DNA of 64,000 nucleotides. Origin: Gracilaria domingensis (Eukaryota > Rhodophyta > Florideophyceae > Gracilariales > Gracilariaceae). The stretch's first letter is position 1; every line of letters begins with the position of its first letter. The notes under the pieces were generated by a model, which made no database searches, was not told the DNA's origin, and saw only the letters and a program-made list of their open reading frames with translations. The DNA lies in assembly GCA_022539475.1 (NCBI GenBank), contig VCMS01000171.1, positions 1-64,000 on the forward strand, in the 5' to 3' direction. The position numbers and the translations under genes were made by a program. Below are positions 7,389-30,707 of the stretch, one piece after another.

Positions 7389-7404
7389 TGCATTATGGTT
7401 TACG

Positions 7405-11860: not shown

Positions 11861-12749
11861 CGGTGTGGATGGCAAGGTACGCGTCGGGGTAAGTACGAGA
11901 TGTTTTTTGTTCGAGTTCTGATAAGAATGCTAACTGGTTACTGTTTTATGTGTATGTGCAGGATTTTCGGGACAGTTTGATTCGTGTTTTCGAGGCTATT
12001 GGTGAGGTAGGGACACATGGTAAGTAGATAAGTGTGCATTTGGGAAAGTTTCGAAGATGGAAAAGTATCTAACGGAGTATTTGACTAGCTTGTGTTTGTG
12101 CATGTGCAGGTGCGTTGGATGGCAATGGATCGGTGGCGGTGCTGGAAATTGTGCAGTTGAGATGTTTTCGAGGGAGTTGGGGAGATGAAGATGGCGAAGA
12201 ATGTTGAGGTAAGTGTGTTTATTTCCATGTTGGGATGGACGAAGAGACTAGGCAACAGAAAACTAACCAAGGGGATGTCTACATTGAGGGCAACGAGAGC
12301 ATTTTCAGGGTATCTATTCGGTGAGTTTCGATGGGTAATTGTCTTCCAAATGATACAGGGCTTCTTTGGTGATGTCAGAATGGATTTTCGGGGGTGAGAA
12401 GTAGGGTGGAGATGTGTACGATGACCGGTTTGGACCTGTTTTCATGTGGTGCTATACCTTGCATGAACCTGCAATACTGCATCAATAACATTCATTTCTG
12501 CTAGGATGGAACTTCCACCGTGCTTTCGGACCGATGGCTGTTTTGGACCGATGGACCGGTAGTACTAGTGAACTAGCAGAAATGGAAGTTAGTTCTAAGA
12601 TTCTAGCAACTTTCATATTTCTTAGAAATAGCTCGTAGTTTGAAAGTCAAGCCTAGTATTCCATTCAAACCATACTGCAGAATCTGGAGTTTACTCTAGT
12701 TTTTCTTCCACTTCAAACTTCCACTAATCGCAATTTAACATATGAAATA

Positions 12750-15700
12750 CTAGCATTTTTTTTCTGCGATTTTTGGACTGTAAACTAGCATCCCGGAAAC
12801 ACAGACGCACCTGAGCTCCTCATTATCCTCCGGCTTCTCCACCGTACCCCAACGTGTCGACATCACTCTCCCCTCAAATGGTCCATCGCTACCGTCCTTC
12901 CATCCTTCATCATCGTTGATTATTTGAACAAACGACTTCTGTTCCTCTCCTTTCCGTATATCCGGCATCGCTCCATACTCATTCTCGAAGAAGTCCACCA
13001 ACTTCCCCGACACATCTCCGAACTCCCGAACTTCTTCCAACTCCTCCCATTTAGGGACACCATTATCCGTCGCAAAGCCATCAAGCACACAATATCCATT
13101 CTGCCTTAGCTCAGCTTGCATTCGGGCGAAGAACTTTTGCCCAAATTTGTCATGCTCCTTCGCAGCAACCCACAGCACCTCTTCATCATCCATACCTGTC
13201 GGTCGAGTACGAGGATACTGCGTACCAAATGTCTCCGCCCGTAGGCGATGTTCAGCCCTTGCAGCGTGCCAAAAGACAAGATGGTGTACATCTCTGAGAT
13301 TCGAGACACTTAGCAGCTCCGACCTATGTCCCTTCGGCAAGTGAATGACTCTGAGCCAGGGGTCCTTGTGCTCAATTACGTTCTTCCCTTGCCATTCCTG
13401 CGGTATCAGCCTGGCATGCCCGCACCATGATGGGTTCGGTGGGCCATCATATGGGTCACCTCGAACAAGTCCGTGCTCCTCAGATTCCGGAAGAGCTGTA
13501 GGTAACTCGTCATCAAATGACCCCCCACCTGTCTCTTGCTGATCGTCTGGCGCAGCATCTTTCTCGACTGTGACAACCCGTGGAACTGTCACAGAAAGAA
13601 GCTCATCGTCATCCACAAATGCAGAACTGCCTGCGTTCTCTGCATTCGCTCCCTCTCCCAATGCCACGAACTGAACCTTCATCGAACTTCCTCTCAGCAC
13701 ATGTTCATTTAGTTGAGACATCAGTTCATCCGGTGTCATGCTGTTCAGAGTAGATCTCATCTGTTGTGTGAAAGTCTTTCTCCGTTTCTTCCTCGGCGGA
13801 GCCCGCTGTTCTTCTTCAGAGCTATCCAGAACTTCTATGGCACCTCGATTTCGGCCGTGCTCAATTTCCCTATAACTCACCTGCGCCCGTTCTCGTGCAC
13901 TTCTTCGCGGCTTCCCTTCTTCACTGGCAGATGTTGCAGCAGCAGCAGCGGGAGTCCTCCTCTTCGTCACGGACTGCTTCACTGGTGCGGGGGGCGGAAT
14001 TACCTTGAGCATCGTCCGCAATCGATTCTGAACGGAAGTCGTGGCAGTTCTAATTGAGTTCGTCCTGCTCCGAACACGCGGCAATGTGTTGAAGTTCACA
14101 ACTTGTCCCAAAAGGAACTGATACACAGCTGCGTTGTTGTCTGGGTCTTCAATGTAATCTTCATTCGATGGAGCAGAAAGACTGACTTCGCGTTTCAGGA
14201 ACACTTCCATGGACTCTTCCTCGTTCAGTTCATTCCTCATTGCTCTAGCCGCGCGGAACAGAGACACTGCTCTATCATAAAAGAAACCTCGAACCTCCTC
14301 AAAGCTTTTCCATTGCTTTGTCTTCGTCGACTTGCCCTTCAATAGAAACATCTGAAGACAATCAAGAATGAAGGAAAACTCCTCGGCATCCAGAACATAT
14401 AGCGGAGTATGGGACAGATGTGTGAGACCTATGTCACTCACAGTCTCACATATATCCTCGAAATGGGCCAGCATTCCCTCACGAGACATGAGTTGCAGGG
14501 CGACATTGGCATATCTCAGGTACTGACGCTCTTGCACAGTCCCAATCAGTTGGCTCTCCTTCAACACTTCTGTCACTTCTGCAGGATCCACGTCTGCCGG
14601 CGTCACCCCCTCAACATCTTCAATTAGAATGGCGACCACACTAACTATAGAGTGTATCTTGTCTGCAAACATCATCCTTCGCATGGTACTCGTCGACTCA
14701 TTGAGGTACGAAGCAACACATAACAATTCCTTCATCCCAATGGGCCTCCCATCTCTTCGTATCAGCAGATTGCAACGCCAAAACTTGGCTAATCGCTTCC
14801 ACTTCGGTGCACCAGTCGCTGCCAAATATTGTATAGCTTTCAGACGATGCAAACCATCTACAATGAAGCACTTCTTCGTTAGGCGTCCCTTGTCAGTATC
14901 CCTCTCTCCCGTAGTAGCATCTTGTAAGGCCACCACTGGAGAACCCATCGACTGCAATATCCCCCGCTCCTCCATACTCTTCACAAGGGCTTCAACGTGG
15001 CGTTTACTTACTCCACGGAGTAAATTGGGCGGAGTGTCCACCAGAGTGATGTCAACAGTAACAACAACCATCCGGTACTGATTGAGGTTCACCTTTGGTA
15101 CCTTCTGACGAATTCGTCTGTACGTCTTGCTCCGAGTAGGTGTCCCTTGTGTTCCAGACCGCTCGCCAGAAACATTTGAACGTGCCATTCTTGCGGACAG
15201 AAGCACAACGTCATCGTCCTGCTGCTCCGCAGTTTTTGGTGCAGTTTGGGGTACAGATGGACCAGCTCCTTGCGCGGATTGCGCATCCGCGTCTGGAAGG
15301 GGACCTTTCATGATATCATCTTCCTCCTCTTGCACAGCCGTCCCCTGCTGAACCGTCTGTTTCGACGCAGAAGATCCCCTTGTGTCGACGGTCTGATTCA
15401 TCGCAGGAGAAGCCCTTTTCGACGCAGTGGGCTTCGTAGCGGAGGTAGACTTTGTTTGACCTGTCCGCTTCGTAGCTGGGGATGCTCTCGTCTCCATAGA
15501 CCGCTTCGTAACAGACGACGGACCTGCCCGCGGAGGTGCTACTGATGCGCTACCTCTCGGTGTTGATGAACTTCGAATTGGCTCCGTGCGGCTTGTCGGC
15601 GTCATCACCTCACTCATAGCGCTCACCGTTCCTCGCTTCGACGCCGGAATGCTGGCTGCCACCGGTTCCATCATTTTCTCATCCCAAGGAGCGGCCGTCT

Positions 15701-16004
15701 GGAGATCCATGATATATTGTGGAAGATCCAGGCCCTCCGCCCGGTAAGGGTAGAACGTCTGACCGCTTCGACCGATGAGAATATTATGAACCACCACAAG
15801 ACCTGGGTCCAATTGCTTCCCGTGCAACTCGCGGCGTAGAACACTTCCAATTCCATGCAACAACGCTTCCCCGACTATCACCTTTCCTTCATCCTCAATA
15901 TCCATCTGCAGAGAAACCCGCATTCCACCTTGCAATAATCGAGTGCTCCGCCGAGTGCGAGGAGTCACGCTTTGCGTACGCTTTCGAACACGAGTTGGCT
16001 TCAT
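12750..16004 (-). CDS. ParB-like domain protein of the transposon
   Basis: An intact 1,084-residue protein starting at an ATG. Residues 1-60 are basic. Residues about 163-221 are five imperfect 11-12-residue repeats rich in Ser, Thr, Lys and Ala, within a disordered stretch that ends near 300. Residues about 305-450 look like a ParB/sulfiredoxin-type domain, with the G-x-HR-x-x-A signature in VDGLHRLKA (382-390). A basic segment (PPRKKRRK) follows in the second half and may be a nuclear signal. Near the C-terminus the sequence GYCVLDGF resembles the opening of 2-oxoglutarate dioxygenase folds, but no catalytic HxD is visible, so I do not assign it. In phages and bacteria ParB-like proteins often neighbour or fuse with DNA methylases, which fits the divergent methyltransferase. 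A possible 3' splice donor (AG/GTGCGT, about 12810) means the C-terminus may differ. Confidence 0.7.
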   Translation of the reverse strand: MKPTRVRKRTQSVTPRTRRSTRLLQGGMRVSLQMDIEDEGKVIVGEALLHGIGSVLRRELHGKQLDPGLVVVHNILIGRSGQTFYPYRAEGLDLPQYIMDLQTAAPWDEKMMEPVAASIPASKRGTVSAMSEVMTPTSRTEPIRSSSTPRGSASVAPPRAGPSSVTKRSMETRASPATKRTGQTKSTSATKPTASKRASPAMNQTVDTRGSSASKQTVQQGTAVQEEEDDIMKGPLPDADAQSAQGAGPSVPQTAPKTAEQQDDDVVLLSARMARSNVSGERSGTQGTPTRSKTYRRIRQKVPKVNLNQYRMVVVTVDITLVDTPPNLLRGVSKRHVEALVKSMEERGILQSMGSPVVALQDATTGERDTDKGRLTKKCFIVDGLHRLKAIQYLAATGAPKWKRLAKFWRCNLLIRRDGRPIGMKELLCVASYLNESTSTMRRMMFADKIHSIVSVVAILIEDVEGVTPADVDPAEVTEVLKESQLIGTVQERQYLRYANVALQLMSREGMLAHFEDICETVSDIGLTHLSHTPLYVLDAEEFSFILDCLQMFLLKGKSTKTKQWKSFEEVRGFFYDRAVSLFRAARAMRNELNEEESMEVFLKREVSLSAPSNEDYIEDPDNNAAVYQFLLGQVVNFNTLPRVRSRTNSIRTATTSVQNRLRTMLKVIPPPAPVKQSVTKRRTPAAAAATSASEEGKPRRSARERAQVSYREIEHGRNRGAIEVLDSSEEEQRAPPRKKRRKTFTQQMRSTLNSMTPDELMSQLNEHVLRGSSMKVQFVALGEGANAENAGSSAFVDDDELLSVTVPRVVTVEKDAAPDDQQETGGGSFDDELPTALPESEEHGLVRGDPYDGPPNPSWCGHARLIPQEWQGKNVIEHKDPWLRVIHLPKGHRSELLSVSNLRDVHHLVFWHAARAEHRLRAETFGTQYPRTRPTGMDDEEVLWVAAKEHDKFGQKFFARMQAELRQNGYCVLDGFATDNGVPKWEELEEVREFGDVSGKLVDFFENEYGAMPDIRKGEEQKSFVQIINDDEGWKDGSDGPFEGRVMSTRWGTVEKPEDNEELRCVCVSGMLVYSPKIAEKKC

Positions 16005-16982
16005 GTTGAACAGCTATTGCAGTGAAAGGTGTATATCAACAATACGCTCGCTCTGGACGATACAACAACGGAGGCGAGCCTTTAAAAGGCGACTTACGCT
16101 GGGCACCCCCGCTTTCGGCAGCTCCTCCCAGCGCACTGCCAGTCTCGTCCGTGTCCTGTCCGTGGCCGCTCGCACACTGATTGTACGCTTTAGAGTCGTG
16201 GAGTTCGCGCAGTGATGACTCACGCGAGCAATGGTCGCGTTCTCTAATCATGCTCTTCAAATGCTTTGCATAGTAGTCAAGAGTACACTCATTCACTTCC
16301 ATGTACAGCCTACTCCCGCCAATACACGTGGACAGCGGCGCCAACGTACCGGCGGCCGGGTGTAGCGAAATCACTGCGCGGCGGCGTGTTTTGGGAGGTC
16401 CCGGGAAGGCACCGGAATGTGGCCAGAACGTGCCCGCGGGCGGGGGGGGTCGGTCGTGTTAGGGTAGGTACCCTAACACGACCGGACCCCCCCGCCCGCG
16501 GGCATAAAATCGCACATTTTTCAAAAAATCGCCCAAAACGTGCCCGCGGGCGGGGGGGGGGGGGGTCGGTCGTGTTAGGGTAGCTACCCTGGGTAGCTAC
16601 CCTAACACGACCGACCCCCCCCCGCCCGCGGGCACGTTCTGGCCACATTCTGGCACCCTCCGGAGACCTCCCAAAACACTCCTCCCGGCACTTCCGGCAG
16701 TGATTTCGCTGCACACGCCGTGCACATATATCAAACTAGAGAAAACTAGCGCTTCACACCCACTTGATCCGCGACTTTTAGCACAATACGGGACCGTTGC
16801 AATAGCTCCGAATCGCGACGTGGCTGATACGCGACGCTATCGCTCCGACACGTGACGCTATCGCTCCGAGCGGACACGGACACGGACGAGACTGGCAGTG
16901 CGCTGGGAGGAGCTGCCGAAAGCGGGGGTGCCCAGCGTAAGTCGTCATTTAAAGGCTCGCCTCCGTTGTTTGCGCTGAAGCG
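16005..16982. promoter_or_regulatory. Inverted-duplicated bidirectional promoter
   Basis: This interval separates the divergent ParB-like and methyltransferase-SET genes and is itself an inverted repeat. Positions 16064-16172 are the near-exact reverse complement of 16867-16970 (about 100 bp with few mismatches), so both genes have almost the same proximal promoter, including a TTTAAA TATA-like box (about 16081-16086 and 16948-16953). A second inverted pair lies inside (16364-16430 with 16635-16710), and nested palindromes fill the centre. The right side also has a direct repeat of a 16-bp unit (16833-16848 and 16854-16869). The arrangement predicts coupled, equal expression of the two genes. 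Confidence 0.75.
16431..16634. repeat. Two GC-rich nested palindromes at the promoter centre
   Basis: Palindrome A (16431-16504) and palindrome B (16541-16634) have the same arms: TGCCCGCGGGC, a G run, then TCGTGTTAGGGTA and its complement. B contains an uninterrupted run of about 16 G (16551-16566) and a doubled centre (TAGCTACCCTGGGTAGCTA). They are separated by an AT-rich 36-bp spacer. Such arms could extrude as cruciforms or form G-quadruplex structures (inference). Long G runs are also prone to assembly error. Confidence 0.9.
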
Positions 16983-19900
16983 ATGGATTCCACCGATGTT
17001 GGAGAGGAGATACATCCTATCGACATGAGTGCTCCGCCTCCGGCGTTCCATGCATATGTCAGACTTTTCTTGGTTCTTCGCGATGCTTTGGCAAACAGCG
17101 ATGGAGGCCCTGATCGCCCACGGGACGTGGGGTTTAGAGGGTTAATAGAGTTCTGCGCCGAGAACTATAAGGATATTCCGGAGGCAAGGAAGATGTTTGA
17201 GGAGGCCACTAACTCCAAGAACCTGCAGAACTTGACACTGCAACAGCTGCGAAAGAGTGTTGTGAATAACAAACCTGTGGAACAACGATATCTTGTAACG
17301 AAGCTTCTTGACAAGAAGGACGGGGATGAGGACCAGAGACTGCGCGATTTTTTCCTTCTCTCTACGGATATGGGTACATACCTACCGGTGCGATGCCTGG
17401 TTGGTTATTTCATGACCAGGAGAAAGCAGGTTCTGAAGACGACAGTGTTCATCCCACCAACAGCTGTGAACCCATTTGAGGTTGTTATATACTTATCATA
17501 CCTCGGCCACATAATGGGAGAGAACGACAACATCCGAATGATGAAGAAGAAACAACCGAAAAAGAAACGAAAAGTGAACCATGCACCAGCTGTGTACATA
17601 CCCACTTTTACGTCGTTCTCCAAAGACAACTGTGATCGACTGGGATTCGGTATCAGTGAGGTCGTATGGGCATGGAGTTGTTTTGCGGCTCATCTTGGAT
17701 ACACGAACGTTCAGCACATGGTGAAACCATACATTTACATGAATATGCAGACGTTGAAGTATACAGCGCTAGAGACACGGGAGTCTGGTTATGCCCCGCC
17801 GAGCCAGAGTACTCGATTCAACACAAAGGATGTGCCACAGAGCAGTACTAGTGGATCGGTGGAGACCTTGAGTGATGAATGCGATACAAACCTCCGAATA
17901 CTGGCTAAGGAATTTTTGACAGACCTCGAAACCGTATGCACCCACGATAGCCTCTATAGCTTACGGGCTGATCAGATGAGGAACTGGATAGAGTTTTCGG
18001 AGATACGGATGGATACCGTATCTGGTTCTGACTCCGGTGAGTTGCCTGCTCGATTTCAGAAGTTTTCGGAGTTGCTATGGAAACCGATACAGATTATGCG
18101 TCATGCGGCAGGGTTCCATGTCGGCATTCACGCGAAACCTGATATTGAACTGACGAAAACCCCTAACACTTCCGGTAATGCCGAACCTTCTTCGACCAAG
18201 TCTGCCCCACCCCCACCTCGTCGAGAGTATATGAACCTCGTGAGCTCCGATAGCGACGAGTTCGAGAAGCCGGTGAATCTTGCGGAGCATGAATCTCGGG
18301 TTGCCGGTTACAACATCCAAAAGACTGGTATTGAGCCACCCATGAAGGGGATATCCAGTCTCCTTCGAATGAATATGGACAAGGTGTGGAAGGGGATGAG
18401 AAAGTCACACTTTGTAGCGTACAACTGTGACATGACGGACCTGAGGCACACACACGAAACGTTTGTGAATCAGAGTGAGATTTTATGGGGTGAAGCACAG
18501 CTTGTCCTAACAGACCCTCCCTTTAACACTCGAAGGAAGAGGGACAAACGGAATAGTGGTCACGATGTCTTCAGTGAGGAAGACATGATCCGTACGGCTG
18601 ACTTAATAAGTTCCGCGCTTCGGTCAGGTAGGCACTTCATTATATTCTGTGCCATGGCACAGTTTCATGTTTGGCACAGGATACTTTCGGAAACGGCGAG
18701 TACGAAAGATGAAGCTGGAAGCGAAGGTAAACCAGAACTCATGCCTTCGTTTAAAGTGGATGCGAATCCACTGGTGTTCATCCGGGATCGCAGTAATGTT
18801 GGAGGGAATCGACGGAAGTTTGGGATACAGCCCGTAACGGAGTACGCCGTTCATGGGGTGAAGCGTGGATTGCGACCATCGGAGGAAGCCAGTCTTACTC
18901 CATTTGAGGAGAACAATTTCATTCCTTCTACATTCCCGGCTAACAGGAATATAATTGACCGGGTGCCAAAACCGAGAGCGGGGGAGTGGTTGACATGGAA
19001 GGTACATGAGCCAGGTAGTTCAGTACAAGGTGGGCAGTACATAAGACCGGAGCAGAAGTCGAGGGAGTTGATGAAGGAGTTGATATGTTGCTTCACAAGA
19101 CCGGGTGATCTTGTCATGGACATGTTCGTGGGAACTTTTTCTACGGGTATGGCGTGCCTATCGCTGACAAAGCATAGGAAGTTCTTGGGGTGCGAGAAGA
19201 ATAGGCCATGTTTCAGCCATGCGAAGCACCATCTAACGACTCTTATGGCCGAAGTTATTCGCGGGGGGAAGAATGACATCCTGGTTGAACCGGAGGTGGT
19301 GGATGCGGCTTCAACGACCTATGAACGGGTTCCACATCGGGACCGAGGTCGGCTTGAATGGGAGGCTCCATTTGGTTACCCCCAGTACCAAGTGATGCCT
19401 GGACATATTACTCAGTTCCTAGGAAGATACTGGAAGGACTGGGACTTTGTCGAGAAGTGTGGACAGCGTACTGTAGATCTTTGGCAGGGGAAGTACCGAG
19501 GAGCTCTGAATCTAATGGATATGCATATGTTGTTGACTGTTGAAGCCAATCGCTATCGCTTACATGTAGCATCTTCTAAGATTCGACATCCCCGTGCTGG
19601 TATGGGGGTGTTCACGGAACATAAGATATTGGCTGGGGAAACTATCTGTCATTTCTATGGAACTTTGGTATACACGGATCTGACGAACCGGAAGGAAAGA
19701 CACTTAACGTATGGAAGTGGCTGTCTCGGAGCAACTCCAGTGCGGTACAAGTTGTTTTCTATGATGGTCACTGTGACTGGTACGGAGTTTCTGCACCTGA
19801 GGAACAGACCAGGACAGGCTCAGGATAGAAAGGAGAGCGAAGTCTACATCGTCCCGGCGCCTTTTTGTATCGGGGGCTACATTAACGACGCCGGATATCA

Positions 19901-20120
19901 TGCCGGGGATCCCGATTTATCGGAGCCCCGGTCAAACAGGACTCGAAGTGCCAATGTGCACGTGGTGGAAGCGAAGTCCGTGCTACAGTTTAAGTCAGAC
20001 CTTTCTAACTATGCTCTACTTCGTTGTAGAGCAGTAAGAGATATTGAGAGGGGCGAAGAGTTGTATTTCAACTACGGAGAGCAGTACGCCTGGGACTGGG
20101 CTCTGACATTGGAGCAATAG
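16983..20120 (+). CDS. DNA methyltransferase (N6-A/N4-C type) fused to a SET domain
   Basis: An intact 1,045-residue protein. Residues 188-197 (KKKQPKKKRK) are a likely nuclear localisation signal. The catalytic DPPF motif is at 511-514 and the AdoMet-binding DMFVGTFSTG at 713-722. This order, catalytic motif before motif I, is that of beta-class amino-methyltransferases, which methylate exocyclic amines of adenine or cytosine. A SET domain follows (about 864-1036): GMGVF and GETICHFYGTLV at the start, GGYINDAG near 964-971, and a final ELYFNYGEQY of the type that closes the SET cofactor pocket. The usual NHS sequence is replaced by YINDAG, so lysine methyltransferase activity is uncertain. 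The protein would couple DNA and protein (perhaps histone) methylation. It shares an inverted-repeat promoter with the ParB-like gene. Copy 1 carries a dead version. Confidence 0.85.
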   Translation: MDSTDVGEEIHPIDMSAPPPAFHAYVRLFLVLRDALANSDGGPDRPRDVGFRGLIEFCAENYKDIPEARKMFEEATNSKNLQNLTLQQLRKSVVNNKPVEQRYLVTKLLDKKDGDEDQRLRDFFLLSTDMGTYLPVRCLVGYFMTRRKQVLKTTVFIPPTAVNPFEVVIYLSYLGHIMGENDNIRMMKKKQPKKKRKVNHAPAVYIPTFTSFSKDNCDRLGFGISEVVWAWSCFAAHLGYTNVQHMVKPYIYMNMQTLKYTALETRESGYAPPSQSTRFNTKDVPQSSTSGSVETLSDECDTNLRILAKEFLTDLETVCTHDSLYSLRADQMRNWIEFSEIRMDTVSGSDSGELPARFQKFSELLWKPIQIMRHAAGFHVGIHAKPDIELTKTPNTSGNAEPSSTKSAPPPPRREYMNLVSSDSDEFEKPVNLAEHESRVAGYNIQKTGIEPPMKGISSLLRMNMDKVWKGMRKSHFVAYNCDMTDLRHTHETFVNQSEILWGEAQLVLTDPPFNTRRKRDKRNSGHDVFSEEDMIRTADLISSALRSGRHFIIFCAMAQFHVWHRILSETASTKDEAGSEGKPELMPSFKVDANPLVFIRDRSNVGGNRRKFGIQPVTEYAVHGVKRGLRPSEEASLTPFEENNFIPSTFPANRNIIDRVPKPRAGEWLTWKVHEPGSSVQGGQYIRPEQKSRELMKELICCFTRPGDLVMDMFVGTFSTGMACLSLTKHRKFLGCEKNRPCFSHAKHHLTTLMAEVIRGGKNDILVEPEVVDAASTTYERVPHRDRGRLEWEAPFGYPQYQVMPGHITQFLGRYWKDWDFVEKCGQRTVDLWQGKYRGALNLMDMHMLLTVEANRYRLHVASSKIRHPRAGMGVFTEHKILAGETICHFYGTLVYTDLTNRKERHLTYGSGCLGATPVRYKLFSMMVTVTGTEFLHLRNRPGQAQDRKESEVYIVPAPFCIGGYINDAGYHAGDPDLSEPRSNRTRSANVHVVEAKSVLQFKSDLSNYALLRCRAVRDIERGEELYFNYGEQYAWDWALTLEQ

Positions 20121-20362
20121 ATCAGTTCAGTACCGAATAGAAAGTAAATATGCTTGTGAGTGTTGCAGCTGCCTGCAATACGCGTTGTTGTACATGTACA
20201 CTGGAGCTCTTCATCTGTAACGGCGATATTTGCGACCCATTGGGCACCTCCAATTCCTAAAAAGCAGGAACTGCGGAGTCTCCCGGAATATCTGAACCAT
20301 GCACCGCCCTCCACCCCTCCCCCCCACAAATTTCGTTTCATTACCCCGTTTATCTCCACAAC

Positions 20363-22759
20363 ATGGGTATAACGCCGAGAAAGCGAAATAGTACGCAGCG
20401 GAACAAGAGCGGACAGAAGAAGAGAAGAGCATCGGATGATACGAATCAGGGTACAAGCACTGCACTTCCTAAACGGAAGTCGTCCTCGACGAAGGAGAGA
20501 GTCAGTGGGCGTCCTTCTACAGGACTCTCTCGCCCATCTCGAAGCGGAGCGTCTTCCGGGATTGCGTCAAGAATTCGTGGATCAGCGAACGATGTCGTGC
20601 CGTCAACTGCCGATAATGCAAATCGTGCATCTGTCTCTGCTCCTCAAGAAGATGAGGTAACTCGGCCCAGCGGGTCAGGACAGGAGGGCATGACAACTGG
20701 AACCGAAGAGGTTCGTATGACACCAAAACCTTCATGTTCCCGGCCGATATCGAAGACCGGAGCTACTGGAGCACGGGTTACGCCGCCCAGTGGATCTGGA
20801 CAACAAGGGACAATGACGAGAAGTCGTGAGAGCCCTAGTATATTAAGATCGTCACGTCCATCCCTGTCTTCTAGAACTGGGGCCCCTATGAATCGTATCA
20901 TGCCTCGCAATGGGTCCGGACAAGGGAGAAAGACAATAAGAAATCGAGAGACAACTGATAGACGAGTTACTTCTCGACCTTCCCCTCTTTCCAGAACGGG
21001 GGCCGTTGCAGCTCGTACGAGGCCCAATTCATCTGATATACGATGCCATGGAGGAGGACAGACACGGGAGTTGGAGCTCGGAGCCGTGACAAGGGTGCAC
21101 ACAGAACGCCTGCAGCCTCTCGTGTCTAAGGCTATGGCACATGAGGATAGTTCCGATAACGAAATAACACCGAATCCTGCGGCATTACCGGGGCCTGTCG
21201 CCGAAGAAGCTAGGGAAATAACGGAAGATATCCAAACTGGTGTGAATTCAAGCTCTATGAACAGACCTGATCTTTTAAATGAACTGAATTGCTTGAAAGA
21301 AAAGGTTAAGACGCTACAAGAGGACTTGATGGTTCGGGGAATTCTAGTGAAGGTCGCCCAAGAGCAGAGTACGGCTTTGAAAAAGAGGCTTGAAGAGAAG
21401 GATCTAGTCATTGAAGGGCTAAGAGGGGCACTGAAACAGGAGGGAGATAGGAGTACACGTGCTGGTGAACCTGGGCAGACAGGTCGAAAGAAGCATAAAA
21501 TTGAGGTGTGCGACGAGTTTCGAGGGGTTGTTCGAGCAGTGTATCACAACATGCTGACGTGGGCAAGGAGAGAAACAAGTGAGCTATGGCTCGAAGGTGA
21601 GTCGCTCACCCGAAACTGGGGTAACCGTGCCGAGAAGGTGGAAGACGCAACTGAGAGTGGGGAAGGGCTTATTGAGCGGGAGGAAGGTGGTTCATACATG
21701 GTTCCTAAAAACCCCGTGGAGCTCTTGGGCAGTTTTGGCATGTTCACACCGTCGGTAGAGGGGGGGCCAGATGCTTTGCTGAAGAAAATGGTTGAAAGCG
21801 AGTTGAAGGAGTTGAGCTGGGAAGGTATTAGAAAAGCATCTCTTACCGACAGGTGTATACTGGAACTTTGTGCAGATATGTGCCTTAGGCAGAGAATGCG
21901 GCAGACCATGAGTGACGTCGTGGGCGTTCGTAAGAGAAATACGAGGGATAAACTATTTCTGCTCCTGGGGTACGATCTGATTTGGAGAAGAACAAAGCTG
22001 GTAGAAGAGAATGCTGACGAACTCACAATGCAGTTGAAGGAAGCGCAGGAGAACATACTGCGTCTTGACGAAAATGGTGTACCGAACACTTCATGGTGGA
22101 GAAAAGCCCCATTTGCTCGTCTAAAGTACTCCAATGCGGACAATGTCGAGGATATGCCGACGGAAGATCAAGACTTGTTCTTCCGAAACCGTGTCGGGGT
22201 ACAAGTGCTGAAGGAGTTTATTGGGTATGATGTGGAAGACAAGGATACGGGCACCTTTTTAGATTGCACAATACTGTTGCTCGCACGTTTGGACGCTTGG
22301 GTGTTGACGGTTGTGAGCCTTCTAAGTACGGATGTGTCAAGGGGTGGCCAGAGACAGAAACTGTTTACAAAGAAGTTTGCCGAACTGCTACCTCTGTGTT
22401 TAAAGAATGTTCTGGGGGATGTTAGGCAACGTGTCTTGAGGACCAATTCCAGCGAGTTTCATAATTTTGGAACGACAACGGAAGATTGGACTAAGGTTCT
22501 TGGTAATGACATGAGAGAGGCTACATTTGGATATCGAATGCCGTCGAACGGAAGACTTTACCTCACTGTGAAAGAACAATTTTTTAATGACAGTGTGAGC
22601 CGAAGATTGGGGTCTATTAGCGATTGCTTCGTTGGTGAATGCGAGGAAGGGGATATGGAGTTCAAGGAAATGGACATGAACGATTTCGGAAGTAACACAG
22701 GATCACAAGAAAAGGCACCACAAGGTGAACATGTAGAGGATGGAGCCCTTAATGTTTAA
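20363..22759 (+). CDS. Basic repeat and coiled-coil protein of the transposon, function unknown
   Basis: An intact 798-residue protein starting at ATG, 243 bp after the methyltransferase-SET stop. Residues 1-75 are strongly basic with Ser/Arg. Residues about 101-218 hold three imperfect repeats of about 40 residues, each with a GSGQ sequence and an R/K-T-G-A sequence. Residues about 303-360 are a predicted coiled coil with heptad Leu/Val. A basic linker follows (GRKKHK), and from about 385 a long alpha-rich domain contains NWGNR, SDVVGVRKR and FIGYDV. These three sequences are also retained in the decayed copy 1. I recognise no known family. A DNA-binding accessory role is possible but unproven. 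Its stop codon overlaps the original stop of the convergent transposase. Confidence 0.7.
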   Translation: MGITPRKRNSTQRNKSGQKKRRASDDTNQGTSTALPKRKSSSTKERVSGRPSTGLSRPSRSGASSGIASRIRGSANDVVPSTADNANRASVSAPQEDEVTRPSGSGQEGMTTGTEEVRMTPKPSCSRPISKTGATGARVTPPSGSGQQGTMTRSRESPSILRSSRPSLSSRTGAPMNRIMPRNGSGQGRKTIRNRETTDRRVTSRPSPLSRTGAVAARTRPNSSDIRCHGGGQTRELELGAVTRVHTERLQPLVSKAMAHEDSSDNEITPNPAALPGPVAEEAREITEDIQTGVNSSSMNRPDLLNELNCLKEKVKTLQEDLMVRGILVKVAQEQSTALKKRLEEKDLVIEGLRGALKQEGDRSTRAGEPGQTGRKKHKIEVCDEFRGVVRAVYHNMLTWARRETSELWLEGESLTRNWGNRAEKVEDATESGEGLIEREEGGSYMVPKNPVELLGSFGMFTPSVEGGPDALLKKMVESELKELSWEGIRKASLTDRCILELCADMCLRQRMRQTMSDVVGVRKRNTRDKLFLLLGYDLIWRRTKLVEENADELTMQLKEAQENILRLDENGVPNTSWWRKAPFARLKYSNADNVEDMPTEDQDLFFRNRVGVQVLKEFIGYDVEDKDTGTFLDCTILLLARLDAWVLTVVSLLSTDVSRGGQRQKLFTKKFAELLPLCLKNVLGDVRQRVLRTNSSEFHNFGTTTEDWTKVLGNDMREATFGYRMPSNGRLYLTVKEQFFNDSVSRRLGSISDCFVGECEEGDMEFKEMDMNDFGSNTGSQEKAPQGEHVEDGALNV

Positions 22760-25700
22760 GGCTGTACAAGATCAACGTGCTCAGTTGGTCCTTCATCTGA
22801 ATCACGATAGAATCGATTGATGTAGAATCGGTGTTGAAACCATTGAAGTGGAGGACAAAAAGGTGGAGCAGGGTAGTTTGATCGAACAACATGGACAGTT
22901 CCCTGTGGTGCAGAAGCCGGAACCATCCCGTACCAAGGAGTTAACTCTACGATAGTCTCCGTTTTGGAATGACGAGGGAACGGAAGAGTGTGGTTCTTTT
23001 CATCGTTTGTAGCCTACCGTAAAGATATGCATTTCAATATGTGGTCGATGTTTGTTGCGGGGGGTAAAACCTCGAAATACCGGACGAATGCCACCTCTGG
23101 TGCGGTAAGTGCAGAATCAAGGAGTGGGCAACCCAAGTCTCTGAATCTTCTCCGCTTACCAATACAGTGGAAAACTTTGGCTTTCTACTGGGACCAAATG
23201 CTGGAGAAGCGAAGACACGTTGGATGATGGGGTATTTGGGTCGTCCCAGCTTAAGTGCCTTAGAAGACGAATCGAAGTGTTCAAGAGTCGGAACGAAACC
23301 GCCTTTCACGAGGGCCGAATTCAACAGAGTTATCCTTGTCTTTTCTGGGAAGTATGTAATAGAGTGCTCATCCAGTGTTTCTTTCACGAGACTGAGGAAA
23401 GGAGGAAGGGCCTGTTCACCAATTTGATCAAGAATCGACCTTGTGTCCCTACTTGAGAACATCTCTCTAACAGCAGTCCATGTTTTTGAACTGGACATAC
23501 TTGAAACACAATGTTGAAGAGCTTGTAAAGTGAAAGAACGCCCTCTCATTGCAAACCGAGGAAGCTGTGTGGAAGTTCCTGGTAGACCTGGATTACGCTG
23601 GTAAGGAGTATTGCCATTCCATTGCTTTCTAACATGTCCGTGCTCAACGGAGCGAATAGTCTCCTCCACAGCCGTTGCTGTTCTTCTGGACGTCTTTTTG
23701 TAGTGTCTCTTAAATAGCAGGTGTGCATATTCGTATATGCCTGCGTCGTAGTACTTGATACTTCCCAGACGGCGAATATCGTCCACGAGATGATCGAGAA
23801 GATGAAACTTCAGAGTTCCCAGTCTGGAGGGATGAAAATCCGCCAGAGTCTTTCTTGCGGAACGCTTGAAGGTTTCAATCTCCGAACTAAGACACAGGAG
23901 AGAGCTTTCAGTCCAATACGGGTCACGATTGTATCTGAATAAGGTCGAGAGCAAGTCCGAGTACTGAGAGAAAACGGTTGTGATTGGGGCAACGTCCTGT
24001 TCTCCACAGCATATGTCAAAGAATGCTCCTATGAAGGGAAAGACCATGTCAAGTGCTTTGTAGTTTTTGGCCTCCAGCATTCCACGGAGACCGTCTTTCG
24101 TGAAGATACCATTCAAAGATTTGCCTTTCTCCTGCGTGGAGAAATCGATATGTAAACCTTTGGCAGGAGAATCGCGTTCTATGGCAGCTAGAATTGCGTT
24201 TGCGTGGTTGAGGAGTTGGGTGCGTGTCGTTCGAAATGAACGCGATGCAGATGTTCCTATTGTGGTGCACAGGGTGTCTGACTGCAGTCTCTCGATTGTG
24301 GCCGTTTTTATCCACTTTGAGATGCCGAGATGCAAGTTGTGTAATGGTTCGAATGAGAACAGACTGTATGGAGACAATCCCGGGATCATTCCAAGGCTTA
24401 CGGAAGTTTCGAGGAACGAAGGAATGAGAGATATGGAATTTGAACGCATCAGAGTATCCGCTTGAGATCTCCTCTCCCTCGCAGGACGTGGACGTCTTTC
24501 CCCCTCGTCTTTTTGTGCATGTTTCAAGATAGCTGTGTATGTCTTTCGGATGCTTTTCGTGTGCTTTTGAGAACGTCCGTTGAATGAGGTGGGAATAGGA
24601 CTGCATAAAGATGAGCGAGGGGCTTTGCATCTATGACACGGGCTTTCCGTTTTGGTCCCATGAAGAATGGACAGAATGTCCTTAGCCTCAGGAATATCCG
24701 CACAATAACTTGCAAGCAGAGGATGGCACACTCGACTTAGTTTGTCTTCGCCGATGAACTGAAAACCTTTCTGCGTGAGATTTAGAATGGGCTTCAGGAC
24801 TTGACGAAGAGATTCTTGAAGGATTTGCATCCTGGACTCGCGTAGAGACTTGCTAGAAACGAATGGCATTGCGTCTGCTTCAGATGCGGAAACCTCGATC
24901 AGTGTGGTAGGGAAGTATGCCACTACTGTGAGGTCATCACGGATACACTTACGGCGAAGCTCGTCGGAGAAGTTGAGAAATATGAGGTGAAGAGGATAGG
25001 CGGTAACCGATGTTTGCTTTAGAGTTGTTGAAGACTTATCGGTGTATACCTGCAGAAGACCTACGAAAGATTCACTGTAACTTATTTCTTGGGAGTACCA
25101 CACTATTCTACTATCCAAAGAGCCCATGACCATTTCCTTAAGTTTTGAGGTGGCGTCTCTTGCGAGAGAGCCGGACATGGGGTGAGATATTTTCGTGGAG
25201 TGAATCTGAGGTATAGGGTGGAAGAATGTGTTTTCGTTGTTAGCCAACTGGAGCTGTTTCACAAGTGTCTGAACGAGGTCTCTCGTGTAGAGGGTGGCGC
25301 TGAACTTACATCCTTCTGGCGAGACAGTTCTTCGATTGAAACCGTCCTTTGAGGCGTATCGTTCGAAAATGGCGTTCTTTAGTTCTGTACAGCGCTTGGA
25401 ACTTGTTATGGTCTCGTTGAATCGCTTTTGCGAGAATCGCGGGTCCCGAAGTAGCCCAATTAGCTCGTCAGCCTCACGATGACCAAGGTTGGAAGCTACC
25501 GAAGCCAGACAAACCGTGAGATAATCCATATGCAAATCACCGAGGGTCTCCTCAGAAGGCACTGGGCGGGAACTGCTTCCGTGTTCTCGCTCTAATGACG
25601 CGGGACCCGGGGAAGGAGAAACACAATGCGAAGTGTCCGGAACAGGAGGGGCGCACGGAGTGGGGTCGACGATGTCCTCAGACACCGGAGGCTCGGGAAG

Positions 25701-25910
25701 GCGACAAGGGGCAGTGACCGTTTCGGAAGATGCGGGCGCGGGTGCGGAAAGCTTGAGACGCTTGCTTCTCCGAATGGGCTGGCTATTGTCGTCTTCCAGC
25801 GCTGCTTTCAGACGAAACGGGCAATGGTTGACATGCTGTTGAAGAGATAAGACTCCTCGGCGAGTAACGAAGGGGCACCCACGCTTCTTATGTGTACAGT
25901 AGTAGACCAT
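22756..25910 (-). pseudogene. Plavaka/CACTA-like transposase, broken near the C-terminus (copy 2)
   Basis: The main frame runs to a stop at 23034. The best start is the ATG at 25910, which aligns with the start of copy 1 and puts the zinc-finger-like C-x6-C-x13-H-x3-C sequence at the N-terminus; an upstream start at 25994 is less likely. YTDKSST and CADIPEAKD carry the presumed catalytic Asp residues, and CHRCK gives the C-x2-C pair. After about 23140 homology with copy 1 continues in another frame (VAFVRYFEV), then meets an in-frame TAG where copy 1 has Trp (TGG), and resumes (INRFYRD) to a stop at 22756-22758. One frame change and one nonsense change therefore disable the last 130 or so residues, unless splicing removes them. 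A GTAAGC donor-like sequence lies at the break. Confidence 0.75.
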
Positions 25911-26273
25911 GGGAAGAAGAAATGAACGAGAAACGACGACAAAGACTGCAAGGGAAGGGCGTCCGAAGGGAGAAGGAGGTCGAGCGACAGTCAATATCGA
26001 CGTCTTGCTCAGAACGGAGAATATATTTTTAGTTTAAATCACGTGCTTTCGTTCAAAAAGGAACGTAGGTACACGTCGACCTCAACACAAGGGTGTACTT
26101 CTCGTATTATCTACCACTGGTTATAAACCTGTGGTTTCCCAACGTTGTACGCTGTACACTTGTCCAATCTCGCAAAGAAAATAAATCTCTTCCCTCCGCC
26201 GCCGCCCCCGCCCGTCCGACGTCCGACCTTTTGTTACCGTCGTGATCCGTGCCATCCTCGCGTTCTACTCCGC

Positions 26274-26339
26274 TCCGTCGTACTTTTTTCCGCCCTCGCA
26301 CTCGCTACGAAGCGCGAGGGCGGAAAAAAGTACGACGGA
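26274..26339. repeat. Perfect 26-bp-arm hairpin upstream of the transposase
   Basis: Arms at 26274-26299 and 26314-26339 are fully complementary, with a 14-base centre. It lies about 360 bp upstream of the copy-2 transposase start and could mark a subterminal element structure or an independent foldback insertion. Confidence 0.9.
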
Positions 26340-27681
26340 TTACGAAGTAGCGTGATGAGAACGGATTCCATTAAGCGGACATGAAGCGTACCTCATTCTC
26401 TTTCTCCGCCCTCGTCGGACGCCTCCATAAAGCGACAGCATCCGTATCTCACGGATGTATTCCGTGCAGTCTTTCCGTGCAGTCTTTTCGTACGTGCTTC
26501 CATTTCCTTCTACGTATCTTTGTTCTAAACTAACCAATCCTCACCACGTCTCTTCGCGCTCTGCGACATGTAAACGGCAGGAAAAAGGCTTTGGGTTACT
26601 TTTGCGAGTTACTAGGTCCCTCGACTTTTCTAGCGCAACTTTTCTGTTTTGCTCTATCAATGGTACGTTCTATCGCGTTTCAACTGTATCCAACGGAGCA
26701 TTGACTAACTTATGGATACTTTCTGCTTGCGTATACAGGTAAACGACCAATTTCATTTCGTCTCTCAAGATCGATGTCTGACTGTTCGGGATAGGCGATT
26801 CTGGTAATGGACTACAAAAGATCAGCAAACGAGCCGCACTGCGGAGCACTGACTCGCGATAAGCGGGAAAAATCCCGAGACGAATGGGACAAACCTACAA
26901 TGTAGGGCAGTGTAGCGAAAGCCGTAAGACGGAAATGAGAACAATAAAATAGATAACAAAAGTGCTGTGACGACAGATTAGTACTCCTCGGGGACGGAGG
27001 TTGGTTGATCAGCCCGTAATTGCGGCGGTGTTCCCCAGGGTGGGGCTTGTGACCGTGCGCAAGCGGCAAGAAGATCAGAGCCAAAGGCCTCGTTGAGGTT
27101 TACTTCCCGTACAGTGGCGGCAAGTGCCGCCACTTATATACGGCACTTGAAAATATCCATTAAAATATCTAACTATCCGGCGATGCCGGCCAATACACTA
27201 CAGCTGTGCACCCGTGGCAGGTTTGCCACGGCGCACCCGCTATCGGGCCAACTTGGCACACATGTGCAGAAATACTACCCTTCCTAGGCATACCCCAAAA
27301 TAGAGCCACTATCACAGTAGCCTCTCATAACCTGAGGTGTCGAAGCCAGTAACGGATCAACAAACTATGAAAAGCACCTCGGTGCATCCCCATAAAAGGG
27401 CGTTTTGCTCTACAGTCATATTGTCTTGGAATGTGAGATGCCTCTTTCCCGATCCATTGGAATGCGATGTTGCGAACGCTGCACAAGCAATATGTGTACT
27501 GGGCTAACATAGTTTGACTGAATTCCAACAGGATGCAGTATATAATGCTTGCGACACCATGGCTGCTCCCTTTTGCGACAACAAAGAGTACCTTTGGTTT
27601 TCCTAGTACCGCAGCGTCATGAAGGCATTGCAACCGATACTCCGTGCTTTTCACCATTGCATGAAACAGTTTTGTTGAATA
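26340..27681. other. Gene-free stretch between two transposons
   Basis: No supported gene. Small GC-rich inverted repeats occur near 27113-27134 (AGTGGCGG with its complement) and around 27210-27230 (CGTGGCA with its complement). Nothing resembling a tRNA cloverleaf was found by eye. Confidence 0.5.
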
Positions 27682-30641
27682 CTATGATGTTCCAATGCTA
27701 CGCAGCTGCACGAAAGTGCTGTAGTTGTTTTTTATTCCTTCGGCCTCTTTTATTGTTCGCAGAGCGGTCATCTTCTTAATTTCAATTGCTACCACGCTTT
27801 CCACTCCAGTTCCACTTTTCACGGCTGCGATTCCATCAGGACTACCGGCCAAGAGCCCAACTTGCTTCGATGCTTTCAAGCCAACTGTCCATATTCTCGT
27901 GATAATATAGCGAGACTCGTACTGCCCTCTGTGATTAATTCCCATTTGAAACGCAGTAGAGCATGTCACGGGATTATGACGAAAGAACTTGGGCAGAGAG
28001 AGCAGTACTCTATTTTCGTTATACGAACCCTCTTTCATTCCTGCAGCCGCAGTCAGCGGTTTCATAAACCACGCATCTAATGAGGCCTTATATATTTGAC
28101 GGACCAGATCCTTGGATAAGGCTTCATTGTCCTGAGTTGTCTCTGCCGCGTCCGAGAGATTAACAGATCCGCTGTTTACATCGCTTCGCAGCTGAAGAAT
28201 CTTTTCCTTCATTTGCGGTTTAGTGGCGTTTGACGCTCGTCTATGCCCTACCTTCTCCAAAGTGGAGAATAATGCGTCTCTTCGCATTGCTTGTAGTGCA
28301 GAAGAAGTTGCATTCATAACAGTCTCTATTGCTTCGCTGATTTCCGTTGCCGTCGCAGAGTTCTTGTGCTTCACTCCCAGTGCCTGCAAGATAGACATCC
28401 ATTTTGCGCGAAGCGCGCTCTCTGCCTCAGGTGCCTCGAATGGCTGGTTTTGTGCTCCTTCCATCACACTCGTTCCACGCAAAAGTAACGCACTACCTCT
28501 CAGGTGCTTATCAATGTCAGAGGCAAAGGTTTTGTAGAAGCCGCTGGTTGTGCGGCACGTAAATTGGAATGCTCGAGAAAGGAACCAACCTGGATCCTCA
28601 GATTGTAGAAGTGTGTACTGGTTGACTTGACTGGTGGCAAGAGAAAGCTTGAGTGACGAAAGGTCTGTAGAATATTCAGTGTCAAGCATTGAATCGTCAT
28701 CACCAACTATCGTGCTATTATTAACTTGCGAAATGCGGTAGATCTCCTTGTGGCCTTGCCTTATGTCCTCCTGCAACGCTTCTGACTGGTACTCCGTTTT
28801 TGGAATCAACGTAAACGCTTTTGCGTCAAACAATCTCATATTGTTGTGATACAGATACGCAATCCTCCCTGAGTAGCTCTCGCGATACACCAGAGCCTGA
28901 ACCTCTCTCCCACACTTCTCCGTCGGACCTCTGGTTGCGCTGTACACGGCTCTGCATCCGTTTTCTTTCACTATCATCCCTTTGTGATTGTTCCTGATCT
29001 TTCCCTCTCCGAATACAAAGGGGTAGTTAAGGCTTCGTTTGTGGGTACCCATCCCAGTTGCGCCGAGCCGATCGTTAATAAAGTCTATGGTCTCTTTGCC
29101 ATTGTATCCTCTGTCGGCGATAAATATCGCATCTGTCATTGGGCTGAGAGAGCCAGGAGTTGCAGACCCTTGCACTAGCTGTACTAAACGCTCCCATACG
29201 TGAATGATCTTTTCACGAGGTCTTGAGTAGTGTGATGCCAGAAACGATGAGGTCAGTGCCGAACAAAGAGCATTGTTTACGGGCCCTAAAGCTTTCTGTG
29301 GGTTATTACTTGTGAAAGCATAGTTAGCTCCGTAACAGCACGTGATCGTAGCCGTTGATGATCATCGCCAAGACTGAAAATTGTCTGACCAGGAACGTAC
29401 AGGTATTTTCTGTTGATTGCAGAGAGTTCTTGCTCCAGTTCCATTATCAGTTCATTTCCAGCTATTGGTTTATTGGACCAGCTTAAACCATACTCTTGAA
29501 CTCTCTGTCTCCTCTCCTGAGTCCCACTCAGAGCAGACCAAATCTCGTTGTAACGTTCCCCAGTAATCCCAGTTTGAAAGTAGAACTCTCGATCGCTAGC
29601 AGAGGTCATGATGGCTACACTTGTTCCATACGAGGCAGCTAAGACGTGGGTGACTATAATGCCTTTCAGTTCTGTCACAGTTGTCGGTTGTGCCTTCCGT
29701 TTCGAAAGGACTCTATTCACATACGCCTTCAGTTTTTCTAGGACACATGGAGGAAGTAGAAGATCAAATACAGCCATCATTGTCAAAGTAGACTCATCGA
29801 ATCTCCCATATTGAGCGCAGTTAATTCGAATTTCACTTGACACTGCCTGCAGAATTCGGTTGCACTCCGTCAGAAAACGACCAGCGAGAAAGTGGTCTGC
29901 ATTATCAACCTCAATACTAACGTCCTCGAACGCTCCAGCGTATTTCCATCCCTTCAATCCTCCCACACGCTGCGACGAATTACGAAATTCTTCTTCTCCT
30001 AATTCTACATCTCCATTTGAGGCACCTCCAATATCAACGTCCATCTCATCCTCAAGAAAGTCCGTAGTGTCGACAAACAGACAAGAACAGAAATCTTCTG
30101 TGGCTGTTTGGTTTGCTTCTTCAGCATTTGTTGTAGGAACAATCATACAAGGTTGATAATCATTTGCAGAAGCATGCAATACTTCTAGCTCGTGTTGTGT
30201 TATGTGATCTTGACTGAGGGAGAAGGAACTATCGCTTTCCTGCGTACCAGTCACGAGATCTTCATGGTTGTGTGCGGAAAACGATGGGTCTGAATCCGAT
30301 GTTTCAGCGAAAGCGACCTCAGTAATTCTCTGAACGTCCTTGTTTACATGAAATAATGGCATGGTTTGTGCTGGTTCCGGTGGCGTAGGTGGACTGACTG
30401 CTTGGTCAAGGGCTTCAATCGTGTGCGTAACCTGCAAAGCCGTAGATTCTACATTTAAATCATCCAGAGGAGTTTCACTGTGCTCACCAGCACTTGGGGA
30501 TATTGGCATTGGCGACATTTTAAAGTCATTTTGGGCATCGTCTTGGCTTGTTTCGGACAAGCGAAGCCGCTTTGTTTTCAACGGTGAGGGTGTGAACACA
30601 CACAACCGAGGTGCTGCCGGGGTCTGTGGCGAGTTTGGCAT
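27682..30641 (-). pseudogene. DDE-type transposase with C-terminal YqaJ-like nuclease, one frameshift
   Basis: Two minus-strand frames (30641-29286, 451 residues, and 29175-27682, 497 residues) read as one protein. Just upstream of 29175 the second frame stays open back to about 29340 and continues the first where its homologous-looking text ends (SLGDDH then LRSRAV; after the break SNNPQKALGP). One indel near 29310-29340 explains the split. The first half is acidic and disordered up to about residue 220. The second half has FIADRGYNGK and GTHKRS, of the type seen around the second Asp of piggyBac/IS4-like transposases. Near the C-terminus GSPDG and EIKK fit a PD-(D/E)xK nuclease of the YqaJ type. 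The superfamily is uncertain, and terminal repeats were not found. Confidence 0.6.
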
Positions 30642-30707
30642 GCGGAAGAACCTGTAACAAACCGTTTAGAAAGTCGCGAGAGAAGGAAATCGTTGAGCGC
30701 TTTGAGC

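Follow-up and report, generated by a model that had tools for sequence, protein, structure and literature searches.

A truncated copy of a giant Plavaka-type transposon in Gracilaria domingensis with a putative two-gene module for DNA and chromatin modification

Transposon-borne enzymes of DNA modification

Giant transposons of algae are already known to encode proteins that join a ParB-like domain to a DNA methyltransferase. Sola1-1_Ec32, a 21.5-kb element of Ectocarpus, carries an accessory protein that is ParB-like and has an N4C/N6A methyltransferase (PMC12477816, which cites Iyer 2011 and Petroll 2025). Among fungi, the DNA transposons that carry TET/JBP include Plavaka elements, whose subgroups have the termini TGT..ACA (PlavakaA) or CATCA..TGATG (PlavakaB) (Kojima 2025, PMC12730594), and retrotransposons of dinoflagellates and charophytes carry DNMT (PMC5890265).

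We analyzed a window of 64,000 nucleotides, the whole stretch of G. domingensis DNA presented here. It contains a block of four long ORFs at the positions given in an initial annotation. With moderate confidence, we read this block as a truncated copy of a ∼22.6–22.9-kb cut-and-paste Plavaka-type (CACTA/EnSpm-related) DNA transposon with a two-gene DNA/chromatin-modification module, whose marking activity would be targeted through an array. Similar to Sola1-1_Ec32, it is an algal giant DNA transposon with a ParB-like domain (here a weak assignment), a predicted N4C/N6A methyltransferase and a gene strand opposite that of the transposase. However, Sola1-1_Ec32 is a Sola1 element with one 1104-aa protein, whereas the G. 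domingensis element has a Plavaka transposase and encodes the two activities as separate polypeptides from divergent genes, with an additional SET domain on the methyltransferase, a dioxygenase-like domain on the ParB-like protein, and a palindromic array (PMC12477816). With the fungal elements it has in common a Plavaka transposase, 2-bp target duplications and a cargo of DNA-modification enzymes, theirs being of the dioxygenase kind. In contrast, the available part of that paper mentions no methyltransferase, SET or ParB cargo, and the termini differ from the fungal ones, being CGTCTGT..ACAGACG in G. domingensis (PMC12730594). The DNMT retrotransposons likewise bear a DNA methyltransferase, but theirs are C5-cytosine enzymes in retrotransposons (PMC5890265).

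The initial annotation knew of no described Plavaka/CACTA element with such cargo. Because ParB/methyltransferase proteins of algal transposons are in print (PMC12477816), this class of accessory protein is known, and novelty in that form is unsupported; as far as our search reached, the new parts are the SET fusion, the dioxygenase partner and the array. One protein would potentially write both DNA and histone marks, on a transposon with hundreds of ends and a candidate targeting site. With such an element, the manipulation of host epigenetics by mobile DNA could be tested directly, as could the question of whether 6mA or 4mC plays any role in red algae.

Anatomy and copies of the element

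The transposase gene (23034–25994, minus strand, 986 aa) is an ORF opened by TTG, with its first ATG at 25910. Its initial label as Plavaka-like was borne out by a match to the Pfam Plavaka family PF18759 (E = 3e-18; 66.6 bits against a cut-off of 26.3). Judged by this transposase, the element is a Plavaka, and it stands outside both described terminal subgroups, since its termini fit neither. These termini are defined by other copies in the G. domingensis genome. Alignment of genomic copies, proposed with the initial annotation as a route to the element's ends, yielded both the termini and 2-bp target duplications, which were present in six of ten end pairs and absent in four; at 1/16 each, the chance of six or more in ten is ∼1e-5. 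Genome-wide, there were 576 left ends and 563 right ends, with none for a reversed-pattern control. Other copies put the full element at about 22.6–22.9 kb.

The window copy is truncated at both ends and covers about 12805–26806. Three other copies (C164, C296 and C328) align with the window only from 12805–12808, yet stay alike beyond that point, and on the right homology to the element reaches 26806. No element terminus was found in the window with up to 2 substitutions allowed. The possibility that the element ends at these window coordinates was rejected because the sequence shared by the other copies extends beyond them. Thus, the originally proposed span of 12400–26340 does contain the block, but not a complete copy. 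An additional stretch of the window, 26803–27104, is also similar to C465.

Other copies show how the genes lie relative to the ends. In C164, both ends enclose the ParB-dioxygenase and methyltransferase-SET genes; C296 has the left end and both genes; C257 also has the left end and both, its ParB protein lacking its end; and in C328 the right end accompanies all four genes, the left side extending past the contig edge. In C34, an end pair with differing flanks (TT/TA) surrounds a methyltransferase gene. None of the copies read is intact at both ends and in all four genes. Deletion derivatives that have lost the methyltransferase-SET and ParB-like genes are numerous. The module is absent from C5 and largely absent from C8, and both have perfect 2-bp duplications, so the module is dispensable in cis for mobilization; C28, in which all or much of the module is missing, has a perfect duplication as well.

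SET matches were scored genome-wide (n = 150), and 138, including the window's, fell into one class of score and length, which we took as this element's family as a group rather than one by one; the eight strongest matches, three on C382 and one on C3 were left out. For 36 of 56 coiled-coil matches, a family-class SET lay 273–300 bp upstream on the same strand. A chance cluster of genes was rejected because this spacing is fixed across copies. Pooled dN/dS, as point estimates, was 0.33 for the methyltransferase, 0.38 for SET, 0.49 for the ParB domain and 0.51 for the transposase. Stop-free methyltransferase-SET ORFs (8 of 11 copies) gave 0.43, and values were higher in the middle part (0.61, 3 copies) and in the coiled-coil protein (0.82, 2 copies). 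The assignment of the methyltransferase-SET and ParB-like genes to the transposon therefore stands: rather than termini that exclude these genes or transposase copies never accompanied by them, we found both genes inside the ends of C164, with fixed order and spacing across copies and dN/dS below 1.

The product of the gene initially said to encode a coiled-coil protein (20363–22759, plus strand, 798 aa; an ORF with 56 scored copies) had no match in Pfam, PHROG, PADLOC or NCBIfam. A decayed relative of part of the block occupies 5916–10343. It consists of a coiled-coil remnant (5916–7313, plus strand; E = 6e-54, 33–42% identity, several frames) and a transposase (10343–7843, minus strand; E = 1e-172, 47% identity). 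Three genes had been thought to recur at 1–10.9 kb; these two do, in the same order and orientation, but the methyltransferase-SET gene left only a non-significant SET-like trace (best E = 0.017, at 3736–3831). The unit was rejected as a second copy of the element; it is a different, decayed family.

The palindromic array and the two module proteins

Bacterial ParB loads on parS. Between the divergent ParB and methyltransferase-SET genes lies a palindromic array (16375–16690), its half-site containing GGTCGTGTTAGGGTA, which is a candidate parS-like site. Two arms of a perfect 57-bp inverted repeat are found at 16100–16156, upstream of the ParB gene, and at 16878–16934, upstream of the methyltransferase-SET gene. 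Genome-wide, the array 15-mer was counted 2160 times, against 2 for a control. The array was found in 11 of 13 end-bounded copies (6–23 kb) and was absent by exact match from the other two, both >21 kb. The arrangement recalls bacterial ParB/parS and CcrM/DpnA-type methylases in its ParB-like domain, in palindromic sites by the gene and in the Pfam family of the methylase, but differs in its eukaryotic host and in the oxygenase-like and SET fusions. The array might instead be a structural or transposase-related cis element that the ParB-like domain does not bind. Its retention in C5 and C8, derivatives without all or most of the module, would fit such a role, but it has no 12-mer in common with the left end and two, both A/T-rich, with the right 1.7 kb, and it sits between two module genes; we consider this alternative somewhat unlikely.

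The methyltransferase-SET ORF (16983–20120, plus strand, 1045 aa) encodes an N6_N4_Mtase domain (18498–19211, plus strand; Pfam E = 7.7e-15), with DPPF followed by DMFVGTF, and a SET domain (19599–20078, plus strand; Pfam E = 1.4e-7). The initial description of DPPF, an FxG-type motif (DMFVGTF, by eye) and SET in one polypeptide was thus correct. Among relatives with a name, those nearest to it, DpnA and CcrM, methylate adenine, and we predict an N6-adenine (or N4-cytosine) DNA methyltransferase. The fusion was matched by 16 database proteins, none named as Gracilaria and 11 containing both Pfam domains, and DPP is invariant in all 17 aligned rows. Both methyltransferase-SET and ParB-dioxygenase fusions recur in other records at 26–48% identity; in P0023, an N-terminal DGAHR stretch, ParB-type-like by eye, shares a chain with the methyltransferase and SET. 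C382 has a diverged pair of the two genes side by side (24–38% identity). EPPY replaces DPPF in its methyltransferase, its ParB-dioxygenase is split among several frames, and the 20 kb read there contains no match to Plavaka. The suggested viral ancestry is unsupported, as phage matches (∼28% identity) are confined to the methyltransferase domain and, of at least 80 viral-contig loci, all among the matches listed are to this part only.

The ParB-like ORF in the window (about 12750–16004, minus strand, 1084 aa) is truncated; its homology to other copies covers only 12805–16004, and its final 17–19 residues come from flanking DNA. In C296 the ORF extends to 1308 aa, with a dioxygenase-like domain as its C-terminal part, which is invisible in the window because the window copy is truncated. 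An intron before the dioxygenase part was rejected, since C296 has an uninterrupted 1308-aa frame (the C164 copy is broken there). A putative ParB/sulfiredoxin-like domain with a DGxHR pattern lies at 14685–15092 (minus strand) and matches phrog_3264; an AlphaFold2 model of residues 295–660 had a mean pLDDT of 84.8. The ParB label, a weak assignment by sequence, had an E of 0.0025 with the window sequence alone and was somewhat better with relatives (E = 3.2e-4 for the first member; four of seven members match); PDB profiles at E up to 10 gave a single weak match, a sulfiredoxin (E = 0.54). A search with the ParB protein, in which the 8000 candidates sharing most words were scored, found two Gracilaria proteins only.

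Of nine matches to the dioxygenase half, seven are from elsewhere, and five of these seven have both halves. The motif HxD..H..R (metal triad and distal R) is invariant in eight of eight rows, a count that omits P0026, which stops short of the second His, and the same-genome P0007 and P0008. From this motif, we take the domain to be most probably an Fe(II)/2-oxoglutarate dioxygenase; Pfam gave no match in any of eight members at E up to 10, PDB no credible match, and the structure model a low confidence (pLDDT 41). These three results would also fit a different kind of domain, not an oxygenase, in which the residues are coincidental. We think this unlikely, because all four residues (H, D, H and R) are invariant in eight diverged rows and their SH, GxG..H context presumably reflects that of phytanoyl-CoA-type oxygenases. 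TET/JBP homology was not detectable in this half (Pfam, eight of eight members, E up to 10). If the dioxygenase is real, recruitment of writers has been accompanied by that of erasers, a parallel with the TET-carrying elements of fungi, to which no sequence relation was detectable. The G. domingensis genome has two PhyH genes.

Proposed mechanism and other roles of the module

The initial annotation suggested that the element may mark its own DNA and the surrounding chromatin, either to be protected from silencing or to steer insertion. We propose that the ParB-type domain loads onto the element's own array in the way that bacterial ParB loads on parS. Loading would bring the writers, and possibly an eraser, together at the element. 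The element's chromatin may be kept open by the writers or concealed by them from silencing by the host, and the dioxygenase may take off or remodel methyl marks. In its fullest form, this would be a complete self-targeted, reversible chromatin-marking system, with a parS-like array, a ParB-dioxygenase as binder and eraser, and a methyltransferase-SET protein writing a DNA and a histone mark, by which each copy sets its own epigenetic state; we advance that form tentatively and regard it as doubtful.

The module could also serve copy-number control or competition, using SET and DNA methylation to silence its own element, competing elements or genes of the host. Some SET proteins activate and others repress, and the array is situated between the promoters of the two genes, so that a protein bound there could act as a repressor of both; even so, we judge this role distinctly unlikely.

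It is improbable that the module is merely cargo of a gene-capturing transposon, with no role in the life cycle. Such capture is consistent with the host-like genes in the left arm (ribulose-phosphate 3-epimerase, E = 1.6e-61; two HAD hydrolases, E = 1.3e-12 and 6.9e-5), with the other long ORFs carried by C5, and with the perfect duplications of C5, C8 and C28. However, the methyltransferase and SET have dN/dS below that of the transposase, with the ParB domain about equal to it, and the fixed spacing, the fusions in other records and the side-by-side pair in C382 also argue against such capture.

Termini, target duplications and copies of the element

The four-gene block belongs to one mobile unit, a giant Plavaka-type transposon carrying a conserved module (a divergent gene pair encoding a ParB-like protein with a putative dioxygenase half and a methyltransferase-SET fusion, MTase-SET) and a recurrent internal array of palindromes. 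The copy in the window is truncated: its alignment with contigs C164, C296 and C328 begins only at positions 12805–12808, yet the sequence those contigs have in common continues further left. Three left ends (one on C164, two on C296) share sequence starting with CGTCTGTGTTCTGCA, and six right ends share sequence up to TGCAAGAGACAGACG; neither terminus was found within the window. Searching the genome (78 Mb, 680 contigs, with the window on contig C171) at up to two mismatches returned 576 left and 563 right ends, and none when the patterns were read backwards as a control. The initial annotation had proposed aligning genomic copies to find termini and target duplications, and both emerged: the termini were defined, and a 2-bp duplication was found at six of ten end pairs fetched, whose flanks were identical (chance of six or more, ∼1e-5), unlike those of the other four.

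One end pair, on C34, spans 22.6 kb, encloses an MTase gene and has the flanks TT and TA. The C164 copy measures 18.8 kb and lacks ∼4 kb equivalent to window positions 20199–24234. The C34 span, together with the C164 span plus its missing portion, therefore gives an element length of ∼22.6–22.9 kb. No copy read combined the two termini with a full, intact set of the four genes. Both ends are present on C164, along with the ParB-dioxygenase gene and MTase-SET. On C328 the right end accompanies the full set of four genes, and C296 and C257 retain the left end. Three internally deleted derivatives kept their ends and part of the transposase: one of 10.5 kb on C8 (TA/TA flanks; first 10 kb read), one of 13.8 kb on C5 (AA/AA), with other long ORFs inside, and one of 15.4 kb on C28 (TT/TT). 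In the C5 derivative (482900–496743, stretches L054/L055), two long, overlapping ORFs, by eye resembling a helical-repeat host gene, take the place of the middle part. Several SET copies (C22, C105, C180, C228, C233, C565 and others) lie <2 kb from the start of a contig, which a repeat that interrupts assembly would produce.

Gene order and the palindromic array

An ORF scan of the window located all four previously annotated genes, and Pfam matches confirmed the fusion of MTase to SET and the identity of the transposase as Plavaka. Their arrangement recurs in the genome. Among the matches listed, which make these counts lower bounds, SET lay 273–300 bp upstream on the same strand of at least 36 of 56 coiled-coil matches, and the transposase lay 281–529 bp downstream on the opposite strand of at least 9 of the 56; a convergent SET lay within 8 kb of at least 17 of 46 transposase matches, and a divergent ParB gene upstream of at least 11 of 44 MTase matches. 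The SET set used here comprised 138 of 150 genome matches, omitting the 8 strongest, three on C382 and one on C3.

The region between the divergent genes holds a perfect 57-bp inverted repeat, whose two arms lie upstream of one gene each, together with palindromes that contain GGTCGTGTTAGGGTA and have 36–37-bp arms. Half-sites (at most one mismatch) occurred in 13 of 15 element stretches, at 2–20 per stretch, with more than one array in each of the C296 and C419 stretches; the two stretches with none (C597, C211) do not extend to the array region. An exact 15-mer of the array occurs 2160 times in the genome and twice when read backwards. On C2–C9, 13 of the 23 exact left ends listed had a matching partner on the right, also exact; the 15-mer was inside 11 of these 13 copies, at 0.46–0.59 of copy length in 10 of the 11. 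Given its recurrence genome-wide and its mid-copy position in most of the paired copies, the array very probably belongs to the transposon as a cis element. By analogy with bacterial ParB, the ParB-like protein may bind it.

The ParB-like protein, its dioxygenase-like half and left-arm genes

The ParB label was weak from the single sequence (E 0.0025) and became firmer with relatives: phrog_3264 matched four of seven members of the ParB-like family (best E 3.2e-4). A PDB profile search with the domain returned sulfiredoxin as the sole match at E up to 10 (E 0.54). Residues 295–660 gave a confident AlphaFold2 model (pLDDT 84.8). Two G. domingensis database proteins match the ParB-like protein at 94% and 89% identity across 75% of the query length.

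The C-terminal half lies outside what the truncated window copy reveals. The C296 ORF is 1308 aa long, and its C-terminal part carries HTD..GDVTH..RYH. H98, D100, H174 and R194 are invariant in an eight-row alignment (six relatives and the C382 locus alongside the protein itself; P0026, a database protein that ends before the second His, and two same-genome proteins were omitted). In 2-oxoglutarate oxygenases, residues in an HxD..H..R arrangement usually bind the metal and the co-substrate, and the motif suggests that this half is a putative member of that class. It had no match in Pfam and no credible match in PDB, and its structure model showed no confident fold (pLDDT 41).

Long open frames in the left arm of the element (L030 1935–2717 and L022 2369–5761, in stretches read elsewhere in the genome) encode a ribulose-phosphate 3-epimerase, two HAD hydrolases and, by eye, a reductase-like ORF with no Pfam match; a further ORF there had no significant match. 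These are probably captured genes, with metabolic functions among them.

Selection, relatives and possible role of the module

Pooled pairwise dN/dS, as point estimates from non-independent pairs of gap-free, stop-free matches, was 0.33 for MTase and 0.38 for SET (10 sequences each), 0.49 for the ParB domain (6), 0.51 for the transposase (5), 0.61 for the middle part (3) and 0.82 for the coiled-coil protein (2 only); it was not estimable for the dioxygenase core (2).

MTase-SET has 16 database relatives (26–45% identity), 15 from ena/lgn records and one from Pyropia yezoensis, in which no SET was seen; precomputed Pfam annotation places both domains on 11 of the 16. Seven of nine dioxygenase-half matches come from outside this genome (26–48% identity), and five of these seven have ParB and complete dioxygenase parts. 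On C382 of the same genome, a strongly diverged ParB-dioxygenase (several frames) and MTase-SET adjoin in tandem (24–38% identity), the MTase reading EPPY by eye where the window has DPPF; the 20 kb read of this 115-kb contig showed no Plavaka match. The two-gene module may therefore predate this transposon family and may have moved between carriers. Also on C382 (16509–19661; L139 1010–4162), a 1051-aa ORF that contains DGRHQ and ends in ELFVQYG resembles, by eye, a degenerate ParB-MTase-SET fusion; it has no Pfam match.

The predicted methyltransferase likely acts on DNA. The ParB-type protein could target marks to the element by binding the array, the SET domain could methylate histones, and the dioxygenase-like domain could erase marks oxidatively; the module may benefit the element, by an effect that could be opening or silencing. 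Algal giant transposons with ParB-like and methyltransferase accessory proteins are already in print (PMC12477816), as are fungal Plavaka elements with TET/JBP (Kojima 2025, PMC12730594). Searches of the open literature turned up no transposon with an MTase-SET fusion or a ParB-dioxygenase; overlap with Petroll et al. 2025 is possible.

Elsewhere in the window, minus-strand ORFs at 29289–30665 and 27685–29361, the first with a weak DDE_Tnp_1_7 match (E 0.004, under the cut-off), may belong to another DNA transposon adjoining the block. A minus-strand ORF at 38731–41376 combines reverse transcriptase, RNase H and integrase domains, marking an LTR-type (Gypsy-like) retroelement, and three Kelch-repeat ORFs lie within 8 kb (49284–51047, with a Malectin domain; 52910–54586; 55984–57159).
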